DNA of 47,351 bases from contig PCBK01000079.1 in the NCBI GenBank assembly GCA_002731275.1, forward strand, positions 1 to 47,351, given 5' to 3'. Numbering within the stretch: the stretch's first letter is position 1; each line of letters opens with the position of its first letter. The notes below the pieces were generated by a model. That model was given only the letters and a program-made list of their open reading frames with translations, searched no databases and was not told the DNA's origin. This document shows, in pieces, positions 4,894 through 38,199 of the stretch. The translations under genes were made by a program, and so were the position numbers. This DNA is from Deltaproteobacteria bacterium (GTDB lineage: Bacteria; Myxococcota_C; UBA6777).

Positions 4894-5118
4894 GCAAACA
4901 GAAAGGGGGTTTTGGGGCAGGGTGGGCTTTCCTGAGCTATGTGTTAAAGAATCGAGCAATTACATATTATGTAAACACGAGTTTTCCCTTTTCTATTTGC
5001 GCGAAAGACTTGTCTTTTCGGAGAAGGAGACGTACCCTCCAAGATAGAGTGAACGCTCTGAGCTGGTTGGAATGTTTGGCTGCAGTGATGGCCATTTGGC
5101 AAGAAAGTTGAGGATGCT

Positions 5119-6789
5119 ATGTGTGGAATTGTTTCGATTTTTCGTATCAAGGGTGAACATGAATCATTGCGCAAGCAAGCGCTGGAGTTGTCGAGGAAGA
5201 TTCGTCACCGTGGACCCGATTGGAGTGGAATCTATGCAGATGAGTCGGCGATTCTTGCCCACGAACGTCTTGCGATTGTAGGGATTGAGCATGGTGCACA
5301 GCCGCTCTTCGACGAAAAGAAGGAGCTCGTCCTCGCGGTCAACGGCGAGATTTACAATCATCAAGAGCTCAAGGCCGAATACACCCCCGATGATGTCTAT
5401 CTGACAGCTTCGGACTGTGAAGTCATCATCCCTCTGTATCGGAGATATGGACGGGATTTCCTGAATTGGATGAATGGTATCTTTGCCTTCACCTTGTACG
5501 ATAAGGTCAACAACACTTTCATGATCGCACGCGACCCTATCGGGGTGATCCCTCTGTATTGGGGTTGGGATGAGGAGGAACAACTGTACGTCTCATCGGA
5601 GATGAAGGCGTTGGTTGGGGTGTGCCAAAAGATCGAAGAGTTCCCGCCTGGACACGTGTATTGTAGTGAGGACGACTCGATGACCAAGTACTACGAGCCT
5701 GTGTGGGCAAAGGAGGGCGTTTACCCGTCCGAATCCTATTCCCCTGAGGTGTTGAGAGAGGCGCTCATCGAAGCGGTCCGTCGGCAATTGATGTGTGATG
5801 TTCCGTATGGTGTGTTGTTGTCTGGTGGACTGGATTCTTCGATTATATCGGCGATCGCCGCGCAGTTTGCGAAGAGCCGTGTGGAGAGTCAGGGAAAGTC
5901 ACCGGCGTGGTGGCCACAGATCCACTCGTTCTCGATTGGTCTGGAAGGTTCACCTGATCTTGAAGCGGCCCAAAAAGTGGCGGAACACATCGGGACGATC
6001 CATCACAATTTTCACTTTACTCTGCAAGAGGGGTTGGACGCACTTCGGGACGTGATCTACCACATCGAGACATATGATGTGACGACGATTCGGGCGTCAA
6101 CACCCATGTATTTGATCTCGCGAAAGATCAAGGCGATGGGGATCAAGATGTTGCTGTCAGGGGAGGGGGCTGATGAGATCTTTGGTGGTTATCTGTACTT
6201 CCACAAAGCTCCTGATAGAGAGGCTTTTCACGACGAGACTGTGAGAAAGCTCGACGCGCTCCACATGTACGATTGTCTTCGAGCCAACAAGTCGACCGCA
6301 GCGTGGGGGATCGAAGCTCGTGTGCCGTTCTTGGATGTCGCGTTCTTGGATGTCGCGATGAAGCTCGACGCAGCCGAAAAGATGACCGGTCCAGAGCGCA
6401 TGGAGAAGTACGTCTTGCGCAAGGCGTTTGAGGATATGTTGCCTCATGAGATCGTGTGGCGTCAGAAGGAGCAATTCTCCGATGGTGTTGGGTATGGTTG
6501 GATCGACGCGCTGCGTGATCACGCGGACGCCGAGATCACAGATGAGATGTTAACCAACGCCGCCGAACGCTTTCCTGTTCATCCCCCCCAAACCAAAGAA
6601 GCCTACTTTTACAGGTCGATTTTTGAAGAGCATTTTCCTGGTGATACATGTGCAAGTTGTATCCCTGATGGACCGAGTATTGCGTGCAGTACACCTGCGG
6701 CGATCGCGTGGGACGCTTCGTTCGCAAATCAAGCCGATCCGTCTGGGCGCGCTGTCTTAGGAGTCCACCAACAGGCGAAAGATATCTGA
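5119..6789 (+). CDS. asnB: Asparagine synthetase B, glutamine-hydrolysing
   Basis: A 556-residue enzyme, close to E. coli AsnB in length. It starts MCGI, so Cys2 becomes the N-terminal nucleophile of the class II glutamine amidotransferase domain (about 2-200). The synthetase domain carries the PP-loop SGGLDSS near residue 236 and the SGEGADEIFGGY motif that binds the ATP/aspartate intermediate. It makes asparagine from aspartate, glutamine and ATP in the cytoplasm. GAGG lies just upstream of the ATG. It stands between kmo and a kinase gene with gaps of over 200 bases on both sides, so it is probably a single unit. Other AsnB-like amidotransferases exist, but the intact C-terminus and length favour primary metabolism. 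Confidence 0.93.
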   Translation: MCGIVSIFRIKGEHESLRKQALELSRKIRHRGPDWSGIYADESAILAHERLAIVGIEHGAQPLFDEKKELVLAVNGEIYNHQELKAEYTPDDVYLTASDCEVIIPLYRRYGRDFLNWMNGIFAFTLYDKVNNTFMIARDPIGVIPLYWGWDEEEQLYVSSEMKALVGVCQKIEEFPPGHVYCSEDDSMTKYYEPVWAKEGVYPSESYSPEVLREALIEAVRRQLMCDVPYGVLLSGGLDSSIISAIAAQFAKSRVESQGKSPAWWPQIHSFSIGLEGSPDLEAAQKVAEHIGTIHHNFHFTLQEGLDALRDVIYHIETYDVTTIRASTPMYLISRKIKAMGIKMLLSGEGADEIFGGYLYFHKAPDREAFHDETVRKLDALHMYDCLRANKSTAAWGIEARVPFLDVAFLDVAMKLDAAEKMTGPERMEKYVLRKAFEDMLPHEIVWRQKEQFSDGVGYGWIDALRDHADAEITDEMLTNAAERFPVHPPQTKEAYFYRSIFEEHFPGDTCASCIPDGPSIACSTPAAIAWDASFANQADPSGRAVLGVHQQAKDI

Positions 6790-7242
6790 TCGACACAAAA
6801 GGGGGAGCATCTTCTTGGATGTGGTTTGCTCACTTGCGTTTCGTCTCTTGGGCCTGATGAGCTTGTGTGATGTTTTGGTTTTTTTGGGGAACATTTTATG
6901 AACGAGAGAACCACGCATAAAAAAGTGTGTTTGTACAGACTATGTATACGAGGTCATTTTGAGTGGTGTTGCCACCAAATTGATTGAGCAAGCCCGTAAC
7001 GTTTCTTTTTTCACCCATTTGAAGGGACAAAACACACATTCGCAACCCTGTGTGTGCTGCTTCCAAAGAGAAGCTGCTTGTCCTTTCTGACATTGGATAG
7101 ACCATGTGTCTGTCTGGTTGTCTCAGATCTTTTCCCATCTTTGTGTGGGAGAGAGGTCTCTTTGTACGTGGCTTGTGTTCGTTTGTCAGGCGCTACGGAT
7201 TGGCGCTTGTGTGTTGGACTCGCAGAGTGACAGGGAGATTGG
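6790..7242. other. Intergenic gap upstream of the kinase gene
   Basis: A 453-base gap. An imperfect hairpin follows asnB at 6805-6831 (GAGCATC with GATG and TGCTC) but lacks a T tract, so it is a poor terminator. The remainder is presumably the kinase promoter region; I cannot assign a specific promoter and see no gene. Confidence 0.4.
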
Positions 7243-8130
7243 ATGAAACGATCAGACTTCAAATTACAACGATATCGTATGATCCGCGAGATCGGTCGAG
7301 GAACGTCGGGGATTGTATGGGAAGCCTTTGATAACAAGCGCGGTGAAGCTGTTGCGCTTAAGACCATGAGGTCGGAGATCCCTGACCAATATTATCCCTA
7401 TCTGCTCCAAGAAGCCCGCCGGATGGCGACACTCCATCACACCTCCCTTGTAAATGTATACAACGCCGGACAGCTCGAAGATGGACGTCCCTTCTATACG
7501 ATGAGTCTGATCGATGGTGTCAACTTACAACAGCACATGTCCTCCTGTGAGTCGACTTGGGCGCAAAAAGCCTCTATCCTCAAGCAGCTCTGTCAGGTGC
7601 TCTCCTACGCCTATGGAAAAGGTTACGTCCACAGAGATGTGAAGCCTGCCAATGTGATGATCGATCGACAGGGGAAGGTCTTCTTGGTCGATTGGGGGAC
7701 CGCCGAACACGTCCAGAGTGACAACAGTACAAAGAGCGAGAGTGTCAAAGGTACACCGTTGTATATTGCGCCCGAACTGATCGCTGGTGAGCGTGCGACA
7801 CACGCGTCAGATCAATACGCTTTTGGTGTCATCCTCTACCAATGGTTGACGGGGCAAGATCCTTTTGTGTCCGATACAATTGGTGGCTTGCTCGAAAAGA
7901 TCGAATCAGAACAACCTGCACGACCAAGTCAACTTGTTGGTAGCCAACTTCACCATGAGATGGACGCGCTGTGTATGCGTTTACTCTCCAAAAGACCCGA
8001 AGAGAGGTTTCTCTCCTGGGATGATGTGTTTTTGGCGCTCGATTCTGTCACATTTCGCCACACACCGCCGCCACCCTCATGGTTTGCTCCTCCTGTACAG
8101 CACGCCTTCGCGATCTCTTCACAGTTCTGA
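7243..8130 (+). CDS. Hanks-type serine/threonine protein kinase
   Basis: A 295-residue soluble kinase consisting almost only of the catalytic domain. Visible landmarks are the glycine loop EIGRGTSGIV (about 15-24), the ATP-binding lysine in VALKTM, the catalytic loop HRDVKPANV, a DWG in place of DFG (LVDWGTAEH), and the APE-type IAPELI. All catalytic residues are present, so it should be active. There is no membrane helix or sensor domain, which is unusual: such kinases depend on a partner for input. The next gene downstream is a giant pseudokinase protein on the same strand, so the two may form a signalling pair. SD-like AGGGAG precedes the ATG. Confidence 0.92.
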   Translation: MKRSDFKLQRYRMIREIGRGTSGIVWEAFDNKRGEAVALKTMRSEIPDQYYPYLLQEARRMATLHHTSLVNVYNAGQLEDGRPFYTMSLIDGVNLQQHMSSCESTWAQKASILKQLCQVLSYAYGKGYVHRDVKPANVMIDRQGKVFLVDWGTAEHVQSDNSTKSESVKGTPLYIAPELIAGERATHASDQYAFGVILYQWLTGQDPFVSDTIGGLLEKIESEQPARPSQLVGSQLHHEMDALCMRLLSKRPEERFLSWDDVFLALDSVTFRHTPPPPSWFAPPVQHAFAISSQF

Positions 8131-30040: not shown

Positions 30041-30895
30041 CTATACATAGCGTTTGATCAGGGACAAGGTTTGCTCGTAGTAGGTATGACCAAAGAGATT
30101 GAAGTGGTTGAACACATGGTACAGTTTGTACAGCCCCAAACGCTCTTTGTGTCCTGGAGAGAGAGGAAAAGCCTCTTCGTATGCGTCGTAAAACCTTTGT
30201 GAGAACCCACCAAACAAATGTGTCATCCCCAACTCTGCCTCTCGATGACCGTAAGACACGGCTGGATCGATAAGGCATGGCTCCCCTCGTTCATCACTGA
30301 TCACGTTCCCACTCCACAGATCACCATGAAGCAGAGCGGGTCGCTCTTCGCTTCCTGACAGCAATCCCTCAATCCGAGGCTCCAAACGTCCCATCCATCG
30401 ACGAAGATCATCCGTCGCGATGCCTTGTTGTTCAGCGACCTTGAGCTGGTGTTTGAGTCTGTATTGCCAGTAGAAGGCTGGCCAAGAGATGTCTTTGTCA
30501 CTGGGGACATTTGGCTGCGTTGTCGCACCAATCAAGTTGTCTTCGTAGAATCCGTAATGTGCAGAGGTGACACGGTGTTGGGCTGCGAGGCCACGACCAA
30601 GCGCCTCCATGAAGTCCGTTCGTCTTGGTGCTTGTTCGATGTATTCGAGGAGCAAAAGTTGTGGGGTGGCGTGTTGGATCGATGGAATACGGAGCGCGTT
30701 GGCTTTTGCCAGTTCTTCGAGTCCGTGGGCTTCTTGAAGAAAGGGAGCCTGATCGTCGGGCATGGATTTGACGAAATAGCGTGCGCCATCTTCCATCGTG
30801 ACAATGGCTGCATTGGCGATACAACCGCCTCCAACTCCCTCCATGTGCAATACTTGTTGCCCCAAGGCTGCTGTAAGCTCCTGGCGAACATTCAT
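30041..30895 (-). CDS. Fructosamine/ribulosamine 3-kinase family protein
   Basis: A 284-residue member of the fructosamine kinase family (PF03881). The aminoglycoside-phosphotransferase-like catalytic loop is LHGDLWSGNV, followed by the metal-binding LIDPAVSYGHREAELGM segment, both diagnostic. The family phosphorylates sugars bound to protein lysines (fructosamines, ribulosamines, erythrulosamines) at C3 so that the adduct falls off, repairing glycated proteins. The start codon overlaps the LMW-PTP stop in ATGA, so the two are translationally coupled. Bacterial members mostly prefer ribulosamines and erythrulosamines, so that is the better guess. Confidence 0.9.
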   Translation of the reverse strand: MNVRQELTAALGQQVLHMEGVGGGCIANAAIVTMEDGARYFVKSMPDDQAPFLQEAHGLEELAKANALRIPSIQHATPQLLLLEYIEQAPRRTDFMEALGRGLAAQHRVTSAHYGFYEDNLIGATTQPNVPSDKDISWPAFYWQYRLKHQLKVAEQQGIATDDLRRWMGRLEPRIEGLLSGSEERPALLHGDLWSGNVISDERGEPCLIDPAVSYGHREAELGMTHLFGGFSQRFYDAYEEAFPLSPGHKERLGLYKLYHVFNHFNLFGHTYYEQTLSLIKRYV

Positions 30896-31365
30896 CGTCG
30901 TATTTGGATATGTTGAAGGAGTCCTTCACAGGCATCTTCGAGCAGGTCGAGGACGCGCTCAAAACCGTCTGCGCCGCCGTAGTAAGGGTCGGGGACATGG
31001 TCTGTTGATTCGCGTTGACAAAAGGACGTCATCATATGGAGTTTGTCTTCGTATTGTCCGTCTTCATCGAGGTCCTGAAGATCTCTCATGTTGGACGCAT
31101 CCATCGCGATGATCATATCAAATGTCTCGTAGTCATCGGGAAAGGCGACCTGACGACTGCGGCTGGTGAGGTCATATCCGCGCTTGGCGCCATGTTTTCT
31201 CATGCGGGCGTCTGCTCTCTCGCCAACGTGATAGCCTGCGGTCCCAGCGGAGTCACAAAAGATACTCTCTGACAACCCTGCGCGTTCGACGTAGGCTTTC
31301 ATGACGGCTTCTGCGCTAGGGGAGCGACAGATATTTCCCAAACAGACAAATAACACCTTGAACAT
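30892..31365 (-). CDS. Low-molecular-weight protein-tyrosine-phosphatase family protein
   Basis: A 157-residue phosphatase. The ATG at 31365 is chosen because GGAG lies 6 bases upstream and the fold begins FKVLFVCLGNICRSP. The P-loop C8-x5-R14 is intact, and the general-acid Asp is in VPDPYYGG. Some LMW-PTP homologues dephosphorylate ribulosamine 5-phosphates on proteins, feeding fructosamine-type kinases, and the ATGA overlap with such a kinase gene strongly suggests that role here. Alternatives are tyrosine phosphatase activity on a polysaccharide kinase (Wzb-like), but no such kinase gene is nearby. It follows the cyclic-di-GMP protein gene after 42 bases. Confidence 0.9.
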   Translation of the reverse strand: MFKVLFVCLGNICRSPSAEAVMKAYVERAGLSESIFCDSAGTAGYHVGERADARMRKHGAKRGYDLTSRSRQVAFPDDYETFDMIIAMDASNMRDLQDLDEDGQYEDKLHMMTSFCQRESTDHVPDPYYGGADGFERVLDLLEDACEGLLQHIQIRR

Positions 31366-31407
31366 CTCTTCTCCTTTTGGACGAATCTTGGACAGGAAAA
31401 CATCCAC

Positions 31408-33654
31408 TCATGTGGGAGTGTGTTCTGCAAGGTAAGAGATAAACGCATCGTTGGGAAGGGGACGACTGTAAAAGTAACCTTGACCGAGCCGGCAGCCCAT
31501 CTCTTTGAGTGTGTCGACGAGTGGCTGGTCTTCAATGCCTTCGGCGATGACTTTGAGGCCAAGCTCACGAGACATTTGGATGATGTATTTGACGATCGTG
31601 TAGGTGCGTTTGTTATCGAGTGTGATGACGTAAGAGCGGTCGAGCTTTAACTCGTTGACATGTAGTTTACTCAGGTAGTTGAGAGAGGAGTAACCTGTGC
31701 CAAAGTCGTCGATGGCGATATGGATACCCTTTTCGAGCAAAGCTTGCAATGTACGATTGGCCAGATCAAAGTGACTTAAGACAGCGGTCTCTGTCACTTC
31801 AAAGATCAGGTGTTCAGGTCGGCAGTCGTATTGTTTCAGGAGCTCTTCAAGTGTCGGGATAAAGTGTGGGTCGTAGAGGGTGGAGGGGGAGAGGTTGATC
31901 GCGAGACGGAAGCCTTCGATTTGGTCGACATCCCAAGTCTCCATAGCTTGCAATGCCTCTTCGATGATCAACCTCGTGAGGGGGCGAATGAGCGCTGTCT
32001 GTTCGGCCACTTCGATGAAGAGATTGGGGGCCATGCGACCCCGTTTGGGGTGGCTCCAGCGCACGAGCGCTTCCGCGCCGATGGGGGCACTTGTTTCGAG
32101 GTCAACTTTTGGTTGGAATTCGAGAAAAAACTCTCTGTTTTTGATGGCCTGGTGGATCTCTGCGGCGAGCAAGAAGTGATGAGGGGCGTAGGTCTTTTCG
32201 ACAGGTTCAAAGACCGCGATGGTTTCACCTAGTTGGATCGCCTGATCATTTGCAGTGTCAGCGTATCGGAGTAACTCGTTGCGCTCACTCGCGTGCAGTG
32301 GGGCGAGCGCGATCCCGCAGGTGATCAGGATGTGGATGGGAAATCCTTCGATGTCGATGGGTTGGGAGAGCGCTTCGATGACAGGGCGCATCCGCTGTGT
32401 GACCTCCTCGGGTTTTTGTAGTCTGGAGAATAAGATCCCAAATTGGTCGCCACTAAGGGATGCGATCTCACAAGCTTCTGTGAGATGTTGTTGGATGACA
32501 TGGGTGACACCTTTGCGGATGAGACGTCTTGTCTGTTGGCCGAGGCTATGGGTGAGTGGGTGGAGGTTGTTGATACGGAGCAGGGCGACGCCCAAGAGTT
32601 GGAGTGTGCGGAGATTTTGAGCCAGTGAGTCGTCAAGGATACGTTCAAAATGCTCTCTGTTGGGGAGTCCTGTCACGGAGTCGTGGGAGAGTTCGTATTG
32701 GAGTTTCTTGTGGACTTCGTGTCGCTCAACGGCTGAGGTGAAGATGCTGATGACTGAACGCAATAATTGCAACTCCTCTTGTGTGTATACACGTGTACGT
32801 CGCTCTCCAAGGCAAAGCAATCCCCAGCGGTCTTTGGAACGACCGATGGCTTTGATCGTGAGCTGTTGGATATCTTGTTGGAGGAAGTACGACGGGATAT
32901 GAAGAGAATGTGGTTGGTGGATATCTTCAATATCGACGTGATCTGTCTGTCTGAGCGCGAACCCCAAGACATTTGTGATCTCACCTGAGAAATCATGAGT
33001 TGGAGGTTCGCTTGCCGAGGTGCTATGGATGAGTCGCAGGTTTGGGTTGTTGGAAGTGGCCGAAGGAGCCGATTGCAAAAGGTAGAGTTGATCAATTTGT
33101 AGAATCGAGCGAAGTAGAGAGAGCGCCTCATCGAAGAACAAGGCGAGGTCGGAAAGCTCCAGCGCTCTTTGTCCGAGGAAGGCGATAATATGTTGCTGTT
33201 GGGCGGCTTTTTGTCTCGTCATTTCGCTCTTTTGACGGGCCTCATAAAGACTGCGAAAGCGATTGAGGCGTGTGATGTTTTTCAGTCTCGCGCGCAACAA
33301 GAAACGATCGACAGGTTTACTCATAAAGTCGTCAGCGCCGGCCTCCATCCCTTGTGAGAGGGACTCTCTGTCGTCAAGCGCTGTGAGCATGATAATAGGA
33401 AGCTCTGCGAGCGTCGGGTTTTTGCGCAATTGACGGCAGACCTCAAATCCATCCATATCTGGCATCATCACGTCGAGCAGGATCACATCAGGGATAATCG
33501 CTTCAACCTTTTCAAGGGCCTCTTGTCCACTTGCGGCGAACTCAAGATGGTAACCCTGATTGGCCAAAAGTCCCTTCATTGTCGCGCGTGCGCCGGCTTG
33601 ATCATCCACGATAAGGATGGTTGCTGTCGAAAAGGAGTGTGCACTGTTCATCAC
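31408..33654 (-). CDS. Response regulator REC-GAF-GGDEF(degenerate)-EAL, cyclic-di-GMP phosphodiesterase
   Basis: A 748-residue regulator. REC is at about 10-130 (phospho-acceptor in ILLDVMMPD). A GAF-like domain is at about 165-315. A GGDEF-type domain follows at about 330-480, its signature reading SLSGDQF, so the cyclase is very likely inactive. The EAL domain is at about 495-740, with EALVRW, INLSPST, EVTETAVL, DDFGTGYSS, EGIE and LGQGYF all intact, so it should hydrolyse cyclic-di-GMP to pGpG. The GTG at 33654 and ATG at 33651 overlap the stop of the upstream kinase, showing coupling. It is the probable output of the H-NOX/HNOBA kinase relay: phosphorylation of REC would tune EAL activity. 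Confidence 0.92.
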   Translation of the reverse strand: MMNSAHSFSTATILIVDDQAGARATMKGLLANQGYHLEFAASGQEALEKVEAIIPDVILLDVMMPDMDGFEVCRQLRKNPTLAELPIIMLTALDDRESLSQGMEAGADDFMSKPVDRFLLRARLKNITRLNRFRSLYEARQKSEMTRQKAAQQQHIIAFLGQRALELSDLALFFDEALSLLRSILQIDQLYLLQSAPSATSNNPNLRLIHSTSASEPPTHDFSGEITNVLGFALRQTDHVDIEDIHQPHSLHIPSYFLQQDIQQLTIKAIGRSKDRWGLLCLGERRTRVYTQEELQLLRSVISIFTSAVERHEVHKKLQYELSHDSVTGLPNREHFERILDDSLAQNLRTLQLLGVALLRINNLHPLTHSLGQQTRRLIRKGVTHVIQQHLTEACEIASLSGDQFGILFSRLQKPEEVTQRMRPVIEALSQPIDIEGFPIHILITCGIALAPLHASERNELLRYADTANDQAIQLGETIAVFEPVEKTYAPHHFLLAAEIHQAIKNREFFLEFQPKVDLETSAPIGAEALVRWSHPKRGRMAPNLFIEVAEQTALIRPLTRLIIEEALQAMETWDVDQIEGFRLAINLSPSTLYDPHFIPTLEELLKQYDCRPEHLIFEVTETAVLSHFDLANRTLQALLEKGIHIAIDDFGTGYSSLNYLSKLHVNELKLDRSYVITLDNKRTYTIVKYIIQMSRELGLKVIAEGIEDQPLVDTLKEMGCRLGQGYFYSRPLPNDAFISYLAEHTPT

Positions 33655-35810
33655 GAATGGGACCTCTTTTGTAAGTGTTTTTCGATGGTTGAGATGAGCT
33701 GTTGTAGATTGAGTGGTTTGCTCAGATAGTCATCAGCGCCTGCTTGTAGACAGCGCTCTTTGTCTTCTGGCATCGCGAGGGCTGTCAATGCGACAATTGG
33801 TGTGTGGGCATAGCCTTGGAATTCTCGGAGATTTCCGATCGTCTCAAGACCATCCATCTTCGGCATTTGAATGTCCATCAAGATGATATCAAATGAATCT
33901 TCTCGTGCGTGCTGTAGCGCTTCAATGCCATTTCGGGCGAGCGTGACGTCGTATTGTTTGGCTTCGAGGAAGCGGGAAAACAGCATGATGCTGCTCTCGT
34001 TGTCTTCGGCCAAGAGGATCTTTTTTCTCTCGGACGTAAGCTCGTATGGCATCGTCTTCTTTTTGATCGGCTTGGTCGAGGGGGGAGGAGGTGTCTCGCG
34101 GGGAGGGGGTGGTGCCATCACCCTTGGGAGACTCTTGATGATTGGACGAGCGGGGGTTTGTTTGGGAGCGATATTCGGGAGGGTGATATGGAATTGGCTC
34201 CCCTGACCGATTTGGCTCTCCACTGACAGCGTGCCATTGTGCAGTTTGACCATGTGTTGGACGAGGGAGAGCCCAAGGCCTGTGCCTTCGTATTGTCTGG
34301 AGAGCTTGCTGTCGATTTGGATAAATGGTTGGAAGATGCGCGTCTGGTTCTCTTTCGAGATGCCGATGCCTTCGTCCCATACAGTGAACGTCACCTGTTG
34401 CTGGTCAGGTGTCATCTTCACACGTAGGCCGATACGGCCTCCTTTGGGCGTGAACTTCGTCGCGTTTGAGAGCAGGTTAATCAGGACCTGTTTCAGTCTT
34501 CTGGCATCCGCCCATAGTGGAGCAGTGACACCCTCATCTGTGAAGTTGACTTGCAGTGATTTGTTCGTTGCCCCTTTGCGAATGATTCGCATACACGATT
34601 GGCAGAGGTCGAACAAGTCGACTTTTTCGTATTCAAGTTCGACTTTACCTGCGGATATTTTGGATAGGTCGAGGATATCGTTGATCAGCGCGAGCAAGTG
34701 ACGACCACTCTCTTCGATGTATTGTAGCGACTCTTTTTGGGCTTCGTTAGGGGGACCGTAGACACCTTCTAGAAAGGCCTCTGACATTCCCAGGATGGTG
34801 TTAAGTGGTGTGCGCAATTCGTGACTAATACTCGCAAGAAAGTCATCTTTCATCTTGGAGGCGCGGTCAAGTCGTGCATTTGCATGACTTAGCTGTTCTG
34901 TCCTGACGCGTAACGCTTCTTCCGCTTGCTTGCGCTCTGTGACGTTTCGAATGACGCTCGTGTAGATCTGTGTCTCACCGAGCTCTACGCGACCAAGACT
35001 TAGCTCACATGGAAAAAGCTCTCCATTTTTTTTATGTCCCATCAGCTCGATCGGAGCGTCTGCATGTTTTCGGGCGTACAACACCTCCATAAAGGCGTCC
35101 GCGTCTGTGTCATTGTCAAAGTGTGGAAATAGCAAGCTGAGGTGTTGGGCGGAGAGTTCGTCTTTGCTGTAACCAAAGATCTGCTCGATCGCGCTGTTGA
35201 CGATCATAATTTTGCCGTTTTTGTCGGTAGAAGCGATTCCTTCTGCTGCTGTCTCCAGGATGTTGTGTTTGAGCGCTTCGGCGTGCTCTAGCGCTTCATA
35301 TTGTGTTGAAAGTTTGGCGTTCGCTTGCTTGAGCTGGATGGTCTGCCTGGAGAGCTCCTCGGCGATCTCATGGGCGTCGTGAAGAGATTGTTCTGTCATC
35401 TGGAGAAGATGCAACAAGTCTATCGCCGGATCGTGTAAAGCAAAATCCTTCAGCTTTAAACCGAGCGCGGAGATTTGTTTGGGATGTGTGAGCCAGGGAG
35501 AGCCCAGGAATATCCATGGATTGGACGTTTCATTTTGTAGAGGGAGCCATTGTCCTCTCAACATGAACTCCTCGTTTGTCCGAGAGCGCAGTACCCAGAG
35601 CAAGTGTCTGTCACTGGAGAGCGAGGCAAATGTGAGTGGGACATCTGGTCTTTTGACTTCGAACTCTTGATGTAACGAAGGGAAGGGAGGGGGGAGTAGT
35701 TTTTGAAGCGATGGACCTACCTGTAAGATCGTGAGAGCAGCATCGACCACGATATAAAAAGGGAACAACTCCTCTAGTTGCTGTGGAGATATGTGTGGTG
35801 TCGATAGCAT
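33651..35810 (-). CDS. Hybrid histidine kinase with HNOBA-like N-terminus (HNOBA-PAS-HisKA-HATPase-REC)
   Basis: A 719-residue soluble kinase. Residues about 8-185 match the HNOBA domain of soluble guanylyl cyclases in order: LFPFYIVVD, ILQVGPSLQKLLP, GQWLPLQ, IFLGSPWL, GLKLKDFALHD, then a coiled coil. This domain normally links a heme-NO sensor to its catalytic output. PAS follows at about 185-300 (NSAIEQIFGYSKDEL), then HisKA with HELRTPL, HATPase with N, G1 and G2 boxes (NLLSNATKF, GTGLGLSL), a Pro-rich linker and REC (ILMDIQMPKMDG) at about 590-710. The H-NOX gene lies 58 bases upstream and the EAL protein gene overlaps its end, so this is the middle of the relay. Confidence 0.9.
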   Translation of the reverse strand: MLSTPHISPQQLEELFPFYIVVDAALTILQVGPSLQKLLPPPFPSLHQEFEVKRPDVPLTFASLSSDRHLLWVLRSRTNEEFMLRGQWLPLQNETSNPWIFLGSPWLTHPKQISALGLKLKDFALHDPAIDLLHLLQMTEQSLHDAHEIAEELSRQTIQLKQANAKLSTQYEALEHAEALKHNILETAAEGIASTDKNGKIMIVNSAIEQIFGYSKDELSAQHLSLLFPHFDNDTDADAFMEVLYARKHADAPIELMGHKKNGELFPCELSLGRVELGETQIYTSVIRNVTERKQAEEALRVRTEQLSHANARLDRASKMKDDFLASISHELRTPLNTILGMSEAFLEGVYGPPNEAQKESLQYIEESGRHLLALINDILDLSKISAGKVELEYEKVDLFDLCQSCMRIIRKGATNKSLQVNFTDEGVTAPLWADARRLKQVLINLLSNATKFTPKGGRIGLRVKMTPDQQQVTFTVWDEGIGISKENQTRIFQPFIQIDSKLSRQYEGTGLGLSLVQHMVKLHNGTLSVESQIGQGSQFHITLPNIAPKQTPARPIIKSLPRVMAPPPPRETPPPPSTKPIKKKTMPYELTSERKKILLAEDNESSIMLFSRFLEAKQYDVTLARNGIEALQHAREDSFDIILMDIQMPKMDGLETIGNLREFQGYAHTPIVALTALAMPEDKERCLQAGADDYLSKPLNLQQLISTIEKHLQKRSHS

Positions 35811-35868
35811 CGTCTCTCCTCTTTATTCGCTGTCACTGCGTGTTTGCGAAGTTACAAGTCTCTGTGAT

Positions 35869-36411
35869 TCACCATTGGATCGTGAATTCATCGTGCTTTG
35901 CACCATCTGCGCGTTTGAGTGTGTGTTGGATCGTGAGCGTTGTGTTGTACATCTCACCGAGCCCACGCAACAGTCCAACGACAAATGGTTGTAAACCGTC
36001 ACGATGGGAGTTGTAGTAGAGTCTTATATAGCCGGGGCCTTTCTCCAATACTCTGAACTTGGGTGGGGATAACTTGGGCAGGATAAAAGAGATGCGTGTG
36101 TGGAAGTTGGGCAGGTTCTCCAAAAACTCTTGAAGATTTTCTCCTCCCGCCTCAAAGAGCTCGCTGTATCCTTTTCTTCCTGTGTGTAAAATCCAATGGA
36201 CCCCAAACTCTTCGAGGATCTCTGTCGGGGTGAGCCCCACGTGCTGACTCAACGCGCCGACGATAGCGTATGTCTCCTGATCGTCGTAACCTCGATTGCT
36301 TATATATGTATCTGTCTCGATCCCTGCCGTCTCTTTGACTTTTTCCCACACCCCATCGCCAAAGTGAAGCGTGATGTACTCTTTCATCGAACGGTTGACC
36401 AACCCATACAT
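35869..36411 (-). CDS. Stand-alone H-NOX heme-nitric-oxide sensor
   Basis: A 180-residue heme-NO/O2-binding protein. The ATG at 36411 has GGAGG 7 bases upstream and yields the family opening MYGLVNRSM. The proximal heme ligand is H104 (FLENLPNFH), the propionate-binding YxSxR motif is Y133/S135/R137, and the SPPKF segment gives the heme-distorting proline. The position equivalent to the O2-stabilising distal Tyr140 of thermophile H-NOX is occupied by Pro here, so the protein should discriminate against O2 and sense NO. It is followed after 58 bases by the HNOBA hybrid kinase, its evident partner. It acts in the cytoplasm. Confidence 0.95.
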   Translation of the reverse strand: MYGLVNRSMKEYITLHFGDGVWEKVKETAGIETDTYISNRGYDDQETYAIVGALSQHVGLTPTEILEEFGVHWILHTGRKGYSELFEAGGENLQEFLENLPNFHTRISFILPKLSPPKFRVLEKGPGYIRLYYNSHRDGLQPFVVGLLRGLGEMYNTTLTIQHTLKRADGAKHDEFTIQW

Positions 36412-36564
36412 TGCTCGTCCTCCAAGGTTTGGTAAGAACTCCATACCTTGATAGACGGTTCAAAGTCGCGTTCGATGAAGGAATTTTTTCTGAATCCTTT
36501 TTTCCTTGGAGTGGCCTTGTCGATCCTATCTGCGTTTGTGGCCGTGCTGCGGGAGTTGGGGGGA

Positions 36565-38199
36565 TCAGGTGGCTTTGTGTGTTCTCAGCTCTACATAGAA
36601 TGTCGTCCCTACACCTGGTGAGCTCTCAAAGGTCAACTCACCTCCGTGTAGTCCAACGATCGTCTTGGCGATCGAGAGACCGAGCCCCGTTCCTTTTGTT
36701 GTCCGTTTTGCGTAATCCTCGGCCTGTGAAAATCTTTCGAAGATTTTGCTATGGAACTTGGAAGGGATGCCGTTGCCCCTGTCTTCCACTGCGATCTTTA
36801 AGCAGTTGTCCTCTGTCAGATACGCGCTCACGAGCACCTTTTCCCCTTCTGGCGAAAATTTACAGGCATTGGAGAGTAAGTTGGCCATGACTTGCTTCAT
36901 TCTTTGGACATCGATATCGATGGTGGTGTTGGAGCACTCTCCTAGCTCGATGGAGACTTTGTGTTCTCTCGCGTATGCTTGGTTTTCCTCAACACACGAA
37001 GTCAAAAACGGAGCCACCTTCGTCGGCTTCATTTGAAGGGAGAAGTCTCCGCTGTTGTACTTCTCCGAGTCGAGCAGGTCATTGATCAGTAAGAGCAATC
37101 TCTTGCTGTTCTTCTCTGCGATGTGCAGGAGGTGTTGGGCTTTTTCTTTCTGTACAAGGCCACTGTTGAGTAGCTGCAGCGAACCTTTGATCGACGTTAA
37201 AGGGGTGCGTAATTCGTGGCTGACGGTCGTCAAAAATTCGTTCTTTACGTTGATCAGCATCTTCTTCTCTGTGATATTGAGAAAGTAGCCGTAAAGTGCG
37301 ATCTCTTCGTTATTGAGCTGCTCTGAGGTCGATGTCCCAAAGTACCATTGTTCTCCGTCGAGAGGATCGACGATACGAAACTCATCCTCCCACAAGGTCA
37401 TGTTTTGTGTGGCTCGGTGAAGTCCCTCCCTTACGCGCTCTCTGTCGTCCTTGTGGATGGATTCGAAGAACAATTGTGCCTTGTTCTCGAACTCTTTCGC
37501 AGTGCGTCCCAAGAGTGTCTGTTTGGGGCTGTTGATGTAATCGAAGGACCAACCCCCACCTGAGGACAGGGTGAGCTGCAAGATCTCGCCGGGTACTTGC
37601 TCTGTGATGTGAGAAAGTCGACGTGCGAGTTTCTGGCTTCGTACTGTGTGGAGGTGCACCTTCATCACCATCCGCCAGCCGATGTACGCAAGCAGAGCAG
37701 AGAAGGAGACGAGCGTCGCGATATGATTGAGCCATGGTGCGAGATTATAGGAGTAAGTCTCCGAGCGGATCGAGAAGGTCAACCAACGTTGTGTTGCGGC
37801 AAATCCCAACCCCACAATCGATAAAGACATAAGAGATATCAAAACGATACCCCACCGCAGTGGTAGAAAGAGGATGGCTGTAAAGGAGAAGGTGACCACA
37901 AAGACCCGACTCTCCGCCAATAATCCTAGTTTTGATGCTGGGATCAAGATCGCTGCCCACATCAACGTGAGCAAAAACAACACCCGCGTGGTATACGAAA
38001 AAGCAGACTTTGTCGCCCACAGGAAAAAAACAGCCAATACTAAGAGTAAGTTCGCGATGTAGAACCATCGAAACCCTGTGACAGGTATACGTGAGATGGA
38101 GATCAAGTACGATGGAATACACGCGAGACAGAGTCCAAGGAGAAATTCTTGAAGAAGTTCTTCCTGAAGTGTCCGAAGGTTCCAATCTGTTCTTGGCAT
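36565..38199 (-). CDS. Membrane histidine kinase with multi-helix sensor and PAS
   Basis: A 544-residue kinase. About six hydrophobic helices fill residues 17-180, forming an integral-membrane sensor that does not match a named MASE/7TMR domain by eye. PAS with a PAC-type end is at about 205-310, HisKA with SHELRTPL follows near 330, then HATPase with NLLSNACKF, DRGNGIP and GTGLGLSI. No receiver is fused. It precedes the H-NOX gene by 153 bases on the same strand and could feed the same response regulator, giving a second input to the relay. It could equally act alone. A 13-base palindrome lies 45 bases upstream of its start. Confidence 0.9.
   Translation of the reverse strand: MPRTDWNLRTLQEELLQEFLLGLCLACIPSYLISISRIPVTGFRWFYIANLLLVLAVFFLWATKSAFSYTTRVLFLLTLMWAAILIPASKLGLLAESRVFVVTFSFTAILFLPLRWGIVLISLMSLSIVGLGFAATQRWLTFSIRSETYSYNLAPWLNHIATLVSFSALLAYIGWRMVMKVHLHTVRSQKLARRLSHITEQVPGEILQLTLSSGGGWSFDYINSPKQTLLGRTAKEFENKAQLFFESIHKDDRERVREGLHRATQNMTLWEDEFRIVDPLDGEQWYFGTSTSEQLNNEEIALYGYFLNITEKKMLINVKNEFLTTVSHELRTPLTSIKGSLQLLNSGLVQKEKAQHLLHIAEKNSKRLLLLINDLLDSEKYNSGDFSLQMKPTKVAPFLTSCVEENQAYAREHKVSIELGECSNTTIDIDVQRMKQVMANLLSNACKFSPEGEKVLVSAYLTEDNCLKIAVEDRGNGIPSKFHSKIFERFSQAEDYAKRTTKGTGLGLSIAKTIVGLHGGELTFESSPGVGTTFYVELRTHKAT

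Follow-up and report, generated by a model that had tools for sequence, protein, structure and literature searches.

A split H-NOX/HNOBA sensor probably coupled to a cyclic di-GMP phosphodiesterase response regulator in a deltaproteobacterial genome

The stretch of DNA analyzed here, referred to as the window, comprises all 47,351 nucleotides of contig PCBK01000079.1 from a Deltaproteobacteria bacterium (assembly GCA_002731275.1). Three consecutive genes on the minus strand of the window encode a stand-alone H-NOX (HNOB) protein, a hybrid histidine kinase that begins with an HNOBA domain, and a response regulator that is predicted to degrade cyclic di-GMP (c-di-GMP). Taken together, they probably constitute a split nitric oxide (NO) switch of the soluble guanylyl cyclase (sGC) type that feeds a two-component phosphodiesterase. 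The H-NOX gene (35869..36411) encodes a protein of 180 amino acids, and an alternative start is possible at position 36444. It is separated by 58 nucleotides from the kinase gene (33651..35810), whose product of 719 amino acids has the order HNOBA-PAS-HisKA-HATPase_c-REC as assigned from Pfam matches and motif positions. The response regulator gene (31408..33654) encodes 748 amino acids with the order REC-GAF-GGDEF-EAL, where the GGDEF domain is degenerate by Pfam and motif analysis. The open reading frame coordinates and the junction sequence place the stop codon of the kinase and the start codon of the response regulator within a 4-nucleotide overlap (GTGA, 33651..33654), which is a sign of co-expression. 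An earlier note on this DNA had described three consecutive genes with the last two overlapping, and the reading frames and Pfam matches agree with that description. Promoter-like sites are fewer than expected from shuffled sequence and terminator-like sites are only slightly more numerous than expected.

The H-NOX protein matches PF07700 over the full length of the profile (positions 1-163 of 163; E = 5.5e-46). The nearest solved structures are those of Nostoc Alr2278 (E = 2e-43) and, next, sGC beta1 (E of about 1e-26). The proximal heme ligand H104, P117, and the YxSxR motif (Y133-S135-R137) were located by residue mapping, and all of the heme-contact residues are conserved. The residue F143 aligns with the distal M144 of the Nostoc protein, and there is no O2-stabilizing tyrosine; across 83 aligned H-NOX sequences the distal position is occupied by M, F, or L, and never by tyrosine. 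The absence of a distal tyrosine is the pattern of NO-binding H-NOX proteins without O2 stabilization (PMC1435932). The conserved ligand and pocket residues, together with the lack of a distal tyrosine, fit an NO sensor that does not stabilize O2. Judged by these residues, the protein would bind both heme and NO.

The HNOB and HNOBA families were reportedly defined by Iyer et al. in 2003. The kinase matches the HNOBA profile (PF07701) in two stretches with an E-value of 8.9e-19 and a score of 68.3 bits against a cut-off of 23.4 bits, and the Pfam check that had been proposed for HNOB and HNOBA gives a match for both domains. The matches of the kinase to PAS, HisKA, HATPase_c, and Response_reg also exceed their Pfam cut-offs. 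A phmmer search with the N-terminal 180 residues of the kinase recovered the H-NOXA structures 2p04 and 2p08, which come from a histidine kinase of Nostoc punctiforme (E = 1.3e-13 and 3.8e-13, respectively), followed by sGC beta1 (E = 1e-8). A single-chain model of the HNOBA domain was made with AlphaFold2 from an alignment of 54 related survey sequences. The model has a mean predicted local distance difference test (pLDDT) score of 92.8 and consists of a PAS core (strands within residues 19-105) and a single helix (residues 128-187). When the model was searched with Foldseek, sGC and 2p04/2p08 ranked first, several orders of magnitude ahead of other PAS domains. With VIA-align, Z-scores of 17.0 over residues 5-188 and 16.7 (1.5 Å over 102 aligned residues) were obtained for human sGC beta1 (8hbf_B) and 2p04_B, respectively. 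The PAS-coiled-coil structures of sGC beta1 overall give values of 16-17, and other PAS domains give at most 9.7. The proposal of an HNOBA-like domain at the start of the kinase, structurally comparable to sGC, is therefore upheld by Pfam, phmmer, and structural alignment.

The HNOBA domain of this kinase is made up of a PAS domain and the beginning of the signaling helix. The PAS-like core (residues 1-127; 35430..35810) is delimited by the PF07701 match, the model, and the structural alignment, and the signaling helix, or coiled coil, that leaves it (residues 128-187; 35250..35429) by the model and by an alignment that follows the coiled coil of sGC beta1 as far as residue 415. A stretch of about 30 residues in the Pfam profile (positions 78-109), which is the site of an insert in the animal proteins, is absent. 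The best conserved residues of the family include F16-P17-F18, G32, R54-P55, G86, and W106, and a further conserved stretch, D122-F123-A124-x-H126-D127-x-x-x-D131, lies at the junction of PAS core and helix. Over its full length, the modeled helix can be aligned with NO-activated states of sGC, but with the inactive states 8hbe_B and 6jt0_B the alignment stops at about residue 135; this difference says nothing on the state of the kinase because the model is of a single chain.

The HNOBA domain is followed by a second, ordinary PAS domain (residues 182-295; 34926..35267; PF13426, E = 6.2e-13, and PF00989), the HisKA and HATPase_c core (residues 320-545; 34176..34853; PF00512, E = 3.5e-21, and PF02518, E = 1.7e-29), and a C-terminal receiver (residues 598-709; 33684..34019; PF00072, E = 1.8e-29). 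The kinase and receiver motifs are intact: H330, the N, G1, F, and G2 boxes, and the receiver aspartate are all present. In the response regulator, the GAF match is weak (E = 4.8e-5) and barely exceeds the cut-off. The signature of the GGDEF domain reads SGDQF (residues 401-405) and the metal-site segment reads RINNL, where five related GGDEF-EAL proteins have GGDEF and DLDRF (D-L-D). The EAL phosphodiesterase domain (residues 499-732; 31459..32160; PF00563, E = 1.3e-73) retains E528, N587, E619, D649-D650, K670, E705, and Q725 within the motifs EALVRW, INLSP, EVTE, DDFGTG, LKLD, AEG, and QGY. Among proteins of solved structure, GGDEF-EAL enzymes and DosP are closest to it. Given the degenerate GGDEF site and the intact EAL motifs, the response regulator is most likely a c-di-GMP phosphodiesterase with a dead cyclase domain. 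The breakdown of c-di-GMP had been named earlier as the output of the system, and breakdown is likely the working half of this protein. A bifunctional c-di-GMP enzyme was considered and rejected on account of the degenerate SGDQF and RINNL segments.

The genomes of GTDB were scanned with three H-NOX sequences, and the best 80 of 369 confirmed relatives were used as survey loci. A survey profile for HNOBA was built from four sequences and then iterated. An HNOBA gene lies directly downstream of the H-NOX gene and on the same strand in 77 of the 80 loci by automatic assignment, and in 78 when locus L023, where the end of the contig truncates HNOBA, is included. Locus L079 ends inside the H-NOX gene, which leaves L037 as the sole true exception. 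The survey loci span ten phyla, and the end of the H-NOX domain is typically 30-50 nucleotides from the start of the HNOBA domain. The outputs found behind HNOBA are kinases (47), kinases with a receiver (23), and GGDEF-EAL proteins (3); a further 4 are truncated or cannot be assigned. The order known from Nostoc, with H-NOX followed by HNOBA and a kinase core, is found in the window and likewise in 70 related loci. The pairing of H-NOX with an HNOBA kinase is thus an already known and widespread bacterial arrangement. Of the gene order for which the earlier note had proposed a survey, the adjacency of H-NOX and HNOBA is conserved, and the trio with the EAL response regulator was not found among the 80 loci.

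The H-NOX gene is linked to c-di-GMP enzymes in 6 of the 80 loci (L024, L026, L028, L061, L072, and L080). At L024, from Gemmatimonadetes, the H-NOX/HNOBA pair is preceded by genes for a REC-HD-GYP protein and a GGDEF-REC protein. At L026 and L028, a single H-NOX gene lies between an upstream HNOBA-GGDEF-EAL gene and a downstream HNOBA kinase gene; these loci (L026:4993-9994 and L028:5095-9992) may each represent one H-NOX sensor with two outputs. In many cyanobacterial loci, as at L048:6299-7792, the H-NOX gene is preceded by a pair of genes for a methyltransferase-like protein (about 256 amino acids) and a protein that appears by eye to be TenA/PqqC-like (about 240 amino acids). One genome (G194; L016:5701-7845) encodes a hybrid kinase that has HNOBA and two receivers but lacks an adjoining H-NOX gene, and no H-NOX match is listed for that genome; no further true HNOBA was found in 82 genomes of its phylum. 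Among the five genomes searched from the phylum of the window, HNOBA is present only in the genome of the window itself. Weak HNOBA matches in six genomes (G034, G245, G251, G316, G326, and G461) were set aside since they are confined to the coiled-coil part of the profile (from about position 165 onward). The H-NOX of the relative G003 was rejected as an orthologous system; it belongs to another clade and adjoins a hybrid kinase without HNOBA.

The genome of the window contains exactly two H-NOX genes and two HNOBA genes, and these are paired. The second pair is found on contig C81 (locus L007), unlinked to the first, and consists of an H-NOX gene (6725-7297) and an HNOBA-HisKA-HATPase kinase gene (5037-6728) that overlap by 4 nucleotides. 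The middle region of this kinase has no assigned domain, and the protein has no receiver. The H-NOX proteins of the two pairs are 41% identical and the kinases are 28% identical. In the H-NOX tree, the C81 copy groups with a Gemmatimonadetes sequence (support 97/65) and the copy from the window forms a long, unplaced branch; a recent duplication of the two pairs is not supported because the tree does not join them. With two unlinked and divergent pairs, the genome appears to hold two separate channels. The second pair (L007:5037-7297) adjoins ABC transporter genes that resemble the osmoprotectant type.

HNOBA is not the companion of every H-NOX. In the control genome of Caulobacter, an HNOB domain is present and no HNOBA was found by Pfam. 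In a domain-wide sample, H-NOX exceeds the cut-off in 23 of 386 genomes, and among the neighborhoods retrieved from this sample HNOBA lies downstream only at L106 and L108, whose H-NOX proteins score highest with the clade profile. At L109/L134, L114, L116, and L119, the kinases that adjoin H-NOX are without HNOBA. The statement in the earlier note that the known H-NOX relays employ kinases without HNOBA is accurate for another H-NOX clade (Caulobacter and the distant loci) and fails for the clade of the window, as represented by Nostoc and the survey loci. In Rhodobacterales, plasmid-borne H-NOX genes precede genes for GGDEF proteins with an HNOBA-like start, which exceeds the Pfam cut-off at L102 (Phaeobacter) and is recognized by the survey profile at L100, L103, and L104; the Paracoccus match is weaker than that of Phaeobacter. 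At the plasmid loci L101 and L105, no HNOBA-like start was found with Pfam or the survey profile. The archaeal H-NOX gene at L105:4001-5658, on a Natrinema plasmid, is followed with a 4-nucleotide overlap by a gene for a protein of the pyridoxamine 5'-phosphate oxidase family. Four tandem H-NOX-like genes occur in an unrelated genome (L124, L132, and L133; G262:C202:6238-8590).

Two lines of evidence point to HNOBA as the partner of H-NOX, and both are associations rather than proof of contact. The sole part common to all of the downstream proteins is HNOBA, including the GGDEF-EAL proteins that have no kinase core. With HNOBA constant and the outputs variable, it is HNOBA, not the kinase, that travels with H-NOX. 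In addition, pairwise distances were compared for 43 non-redundant pairs of H-NOX and HNOBA kinase. The H-NOX distances correlate with those of HNOBA (r = 0.76) more closely than with those of the kinase core in the same chain (r = 0.60), with a bootstrap difference of 0.17 (95% range 0.07-0.31), in a set of pairs that share their genomic history and in which kinase cores may have been swapped.

In the mechanism considered probable for the split switch, H-NOX would bind NO at its heme and would dock in trans on the kinase, at the PAS domain and signaling helix of HNOBA, as occurs in cis in sGC. The resulting change would be relayed along the helix to the HisKA core, with an effect on autophosphorylation. 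The kinase would then phosphorylate its own receiver and the REC domain of the overlapping response regulator, and the phosphorylated REC domain would turn the EAL domain up or down, changing the rate of c-di-GMP breakdown. The observations on which this proposal is based are domain content, gene order, the fold match, the integrity of the motifs, and the H-NOX/HNOBA association. Several facts weigh against it. The order of H-NOX, HNOBA-kinase-REC, and REC-GAF-GGDEF-EAL was found in the window only and at none of the 80 related loci, and the link to the response regulator consequently rests on a reading frame overlap in one genome. The kinase, which is of the hybrid type, carries a receiver of its own and no Hpt domain, and hence the response regulator would be phosphorylated either directly or via a stand-alone Hpt protein; direct transfer from the kinase to the adjoining response regulator is an assumption. 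Docking of H-NOX on HNOBA is suggested by homology and gene association, and the correlation above carries the reservation of shared history.

These same facts leave room for a route in which H-NOX controls the kinase and the EAL response regulator is not the main target. Here the signal would pass from the kinase's own receiver through an unlinked Hpt protein to another regulator, with the phosphodiesterase merely co-transcribed. A stand-alone Hpt-like reading frame of fitting size (119 amino acids) is present elsewhere in the genome, on contig C55, and the second H-NOX/HNOBA pair has no EAL response regulator as a neighbor. This route is regarded as unlikely, as the 4-nucleotide overlap of kinase and response regulator speaks against it, together with the ties of H-NOX to c-di-GMP enzymes in 6 of the 80 loci and in Rhodobacterales. 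A wholly accidental neighborhood, with proteins that form no pathway, would also agree with a trio known from one genome, but it is extremely improbable for genes that adjoin in 78 of 80 loci over ten phyla, and twice in this genome.

The role assigned to HNOBA in the split switch can be questioned as well. HNOBA may serve merely as a dimerization module, and the kinase core or coiled coil may itself be the direct target of H-NOX, which is necessarily the case where the kinases are without HNOBA. The occurrence of such kinases next to H-NOX genes of the other clade is in keeping with this idea, as is the crystallized Nostoc H-NOXA domain, which is a dimer (2p04 title; PMC2576301). It is considered quite unlikely, since HNOBA is the only part shared by the downstream proteins, those without a kinase core included, and the H-NOX distances agree better with those of HNOBA than with those of the kinase core. 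The ligand may also be other than NO, with H-NOX acting mainly as a sensor of redox or heme status, or of carbon monoxide. Redox sensing is reported for the H-NOX of V. cholerae (PMC7108781). For the window protein this is very unlikely, because the heme contacts are conserved and the distal F, M, or L with no tyrosine in the clade is the NO-binding pattern noted above (PMC1435932).

Other genes flank the trio on the same strand. Downstream of the response regulator, genes for a low-molecular-weight phosphotyrosine phosphatase and a fructosamine kinase (30041-31407) overlap by 4 nucleotides and may be co-transcribed with it. About 150 nucleotides upstream of the H-NOX gene, another histidine kinase is encoded (36565-38199) in which a weakly MASE11-like N-terminal region is followed by PAS, HisKA, and HATPase domains.

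For sGC, a drug target, a key question is how the NO signal travels from H-NOX to HNOBA and the coiled coil. Where bacteria make these parts as separate proteins, their binding could be measured directly, both in the presence and in the absence of NO. In at least ten phyla, a single adaptor domain ties H-NOX proteins of the sGC-like clade to a variety of outputs. This offers a concrete picture of a possible route by which the animal receptor was assembled, and with the cassette described here, c-di-GMP breakdown through a response regulator joins the outputs found behind HNOBA. It is proposed tentatively, as an idea that may well not hold, that the activation mechanism of sGC, an NO-induced change in the helix extending from the HNOBA PAS domain, operates here in trans, with a dissociable H-NOX that gates a phosphorelay to a c-di-GMP phosphodiesterase, that HNOBA is a plug-in adaptor for kinases and c-di-GMP enzymes, and that sGC arose by fusion of neighboring genes.

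The cassette can be compared with four known systems. A paper from 2008 places the Nostoc H-NOX in the operon of a histidine kinase and reports that the structure of the H-NOXA domain of a Nostoc punctiforme kinase had been solved (PMC2576301; also covered in PMC2828450). Alr2278 and the HNOBA/H-NOXA kinase (2p04/2p08) resemble the window in having a stand-alone H-NOX of the same clade and a kinase that starts with an HNOBA PAS domain, and the Nostoc-type order recurs across the cyanobacteria. The earlier note had regarded HNOBA on a kinase as unusual; in view of the Nostoc precedent and the survey of 80 loci, this novelty is rejected. The window differs from the cyanobacterial kinases surveyed, which are mostly short HNOBA kinases without PAS or REC domains and without an adjoining EAL response regulator.

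The HnoX-HnoK-HnoB relay of Shewanella oneidensis and Vibrio cholerae shares with the window an H-NOX, a kinase, an EAL phosphodiesterase controlled by phosphorylation, and the logic from NO to c-di-GMP; the source that lists this relay, which starts with NO and ends in an EAL phosphodiesterase, also describes a Shewanella kinase inhibited by NO and the occurrence of HNOBA with GGDEF (PMC8846402). As in that relay, an H-NOX, a kinase, and an EAL response regulator are encoded together in the window. The window kinase, however, is of the hybrid type and carries HNOBA and PAS domains. HnoK is not known to contain HNOBA, and HnoB is not known to contain a GAF or a degenerate GGDEF domain; the domain make-up in the window thus appears to differ from that of HnoK and HnoB.

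Animal sGC is activated by NO, and its beta1 subunit has the same families in the same order, namely H-NOX, HNOBA/PAS, and signaling helix. In sGC beta1 these form one chain with the cyclase, whereas in the window the H-NOX is separate and the outputs are a kinase and a phosphodiesterase response regulator. No class III cyclase domain was found by Pfam in the three window proteins, which are not members of the soluble guanylyl cyclases; the sensor half may nevertheless work like sGC. As a description, an sGC-like sensor in separate parts with HNOBA placed on a histidine kinase, as first suggested, is supported by Pfam and by the fold match. The H-NOX/diguanylate cyclase pairs of Rhodobacterales (Dinoroseobacter and Paracoccus type) are similar in that a c-di-GMP enzyme adjoins H-NOX and the cyclase has an HNOBA-like start. 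In those pairs the cyclase is regulated directly with no phosphorelay, whereas the effector in the window is a response-regulator phosphodiesterase. The cassette thus likely joins an HNOBA-type input to a phosphorelay that ends in a phosphodiesterase, and its less usual feature is the combination of an HNOBA hybrid kinase with a c-di-GMP-degrading EAL response regulator.

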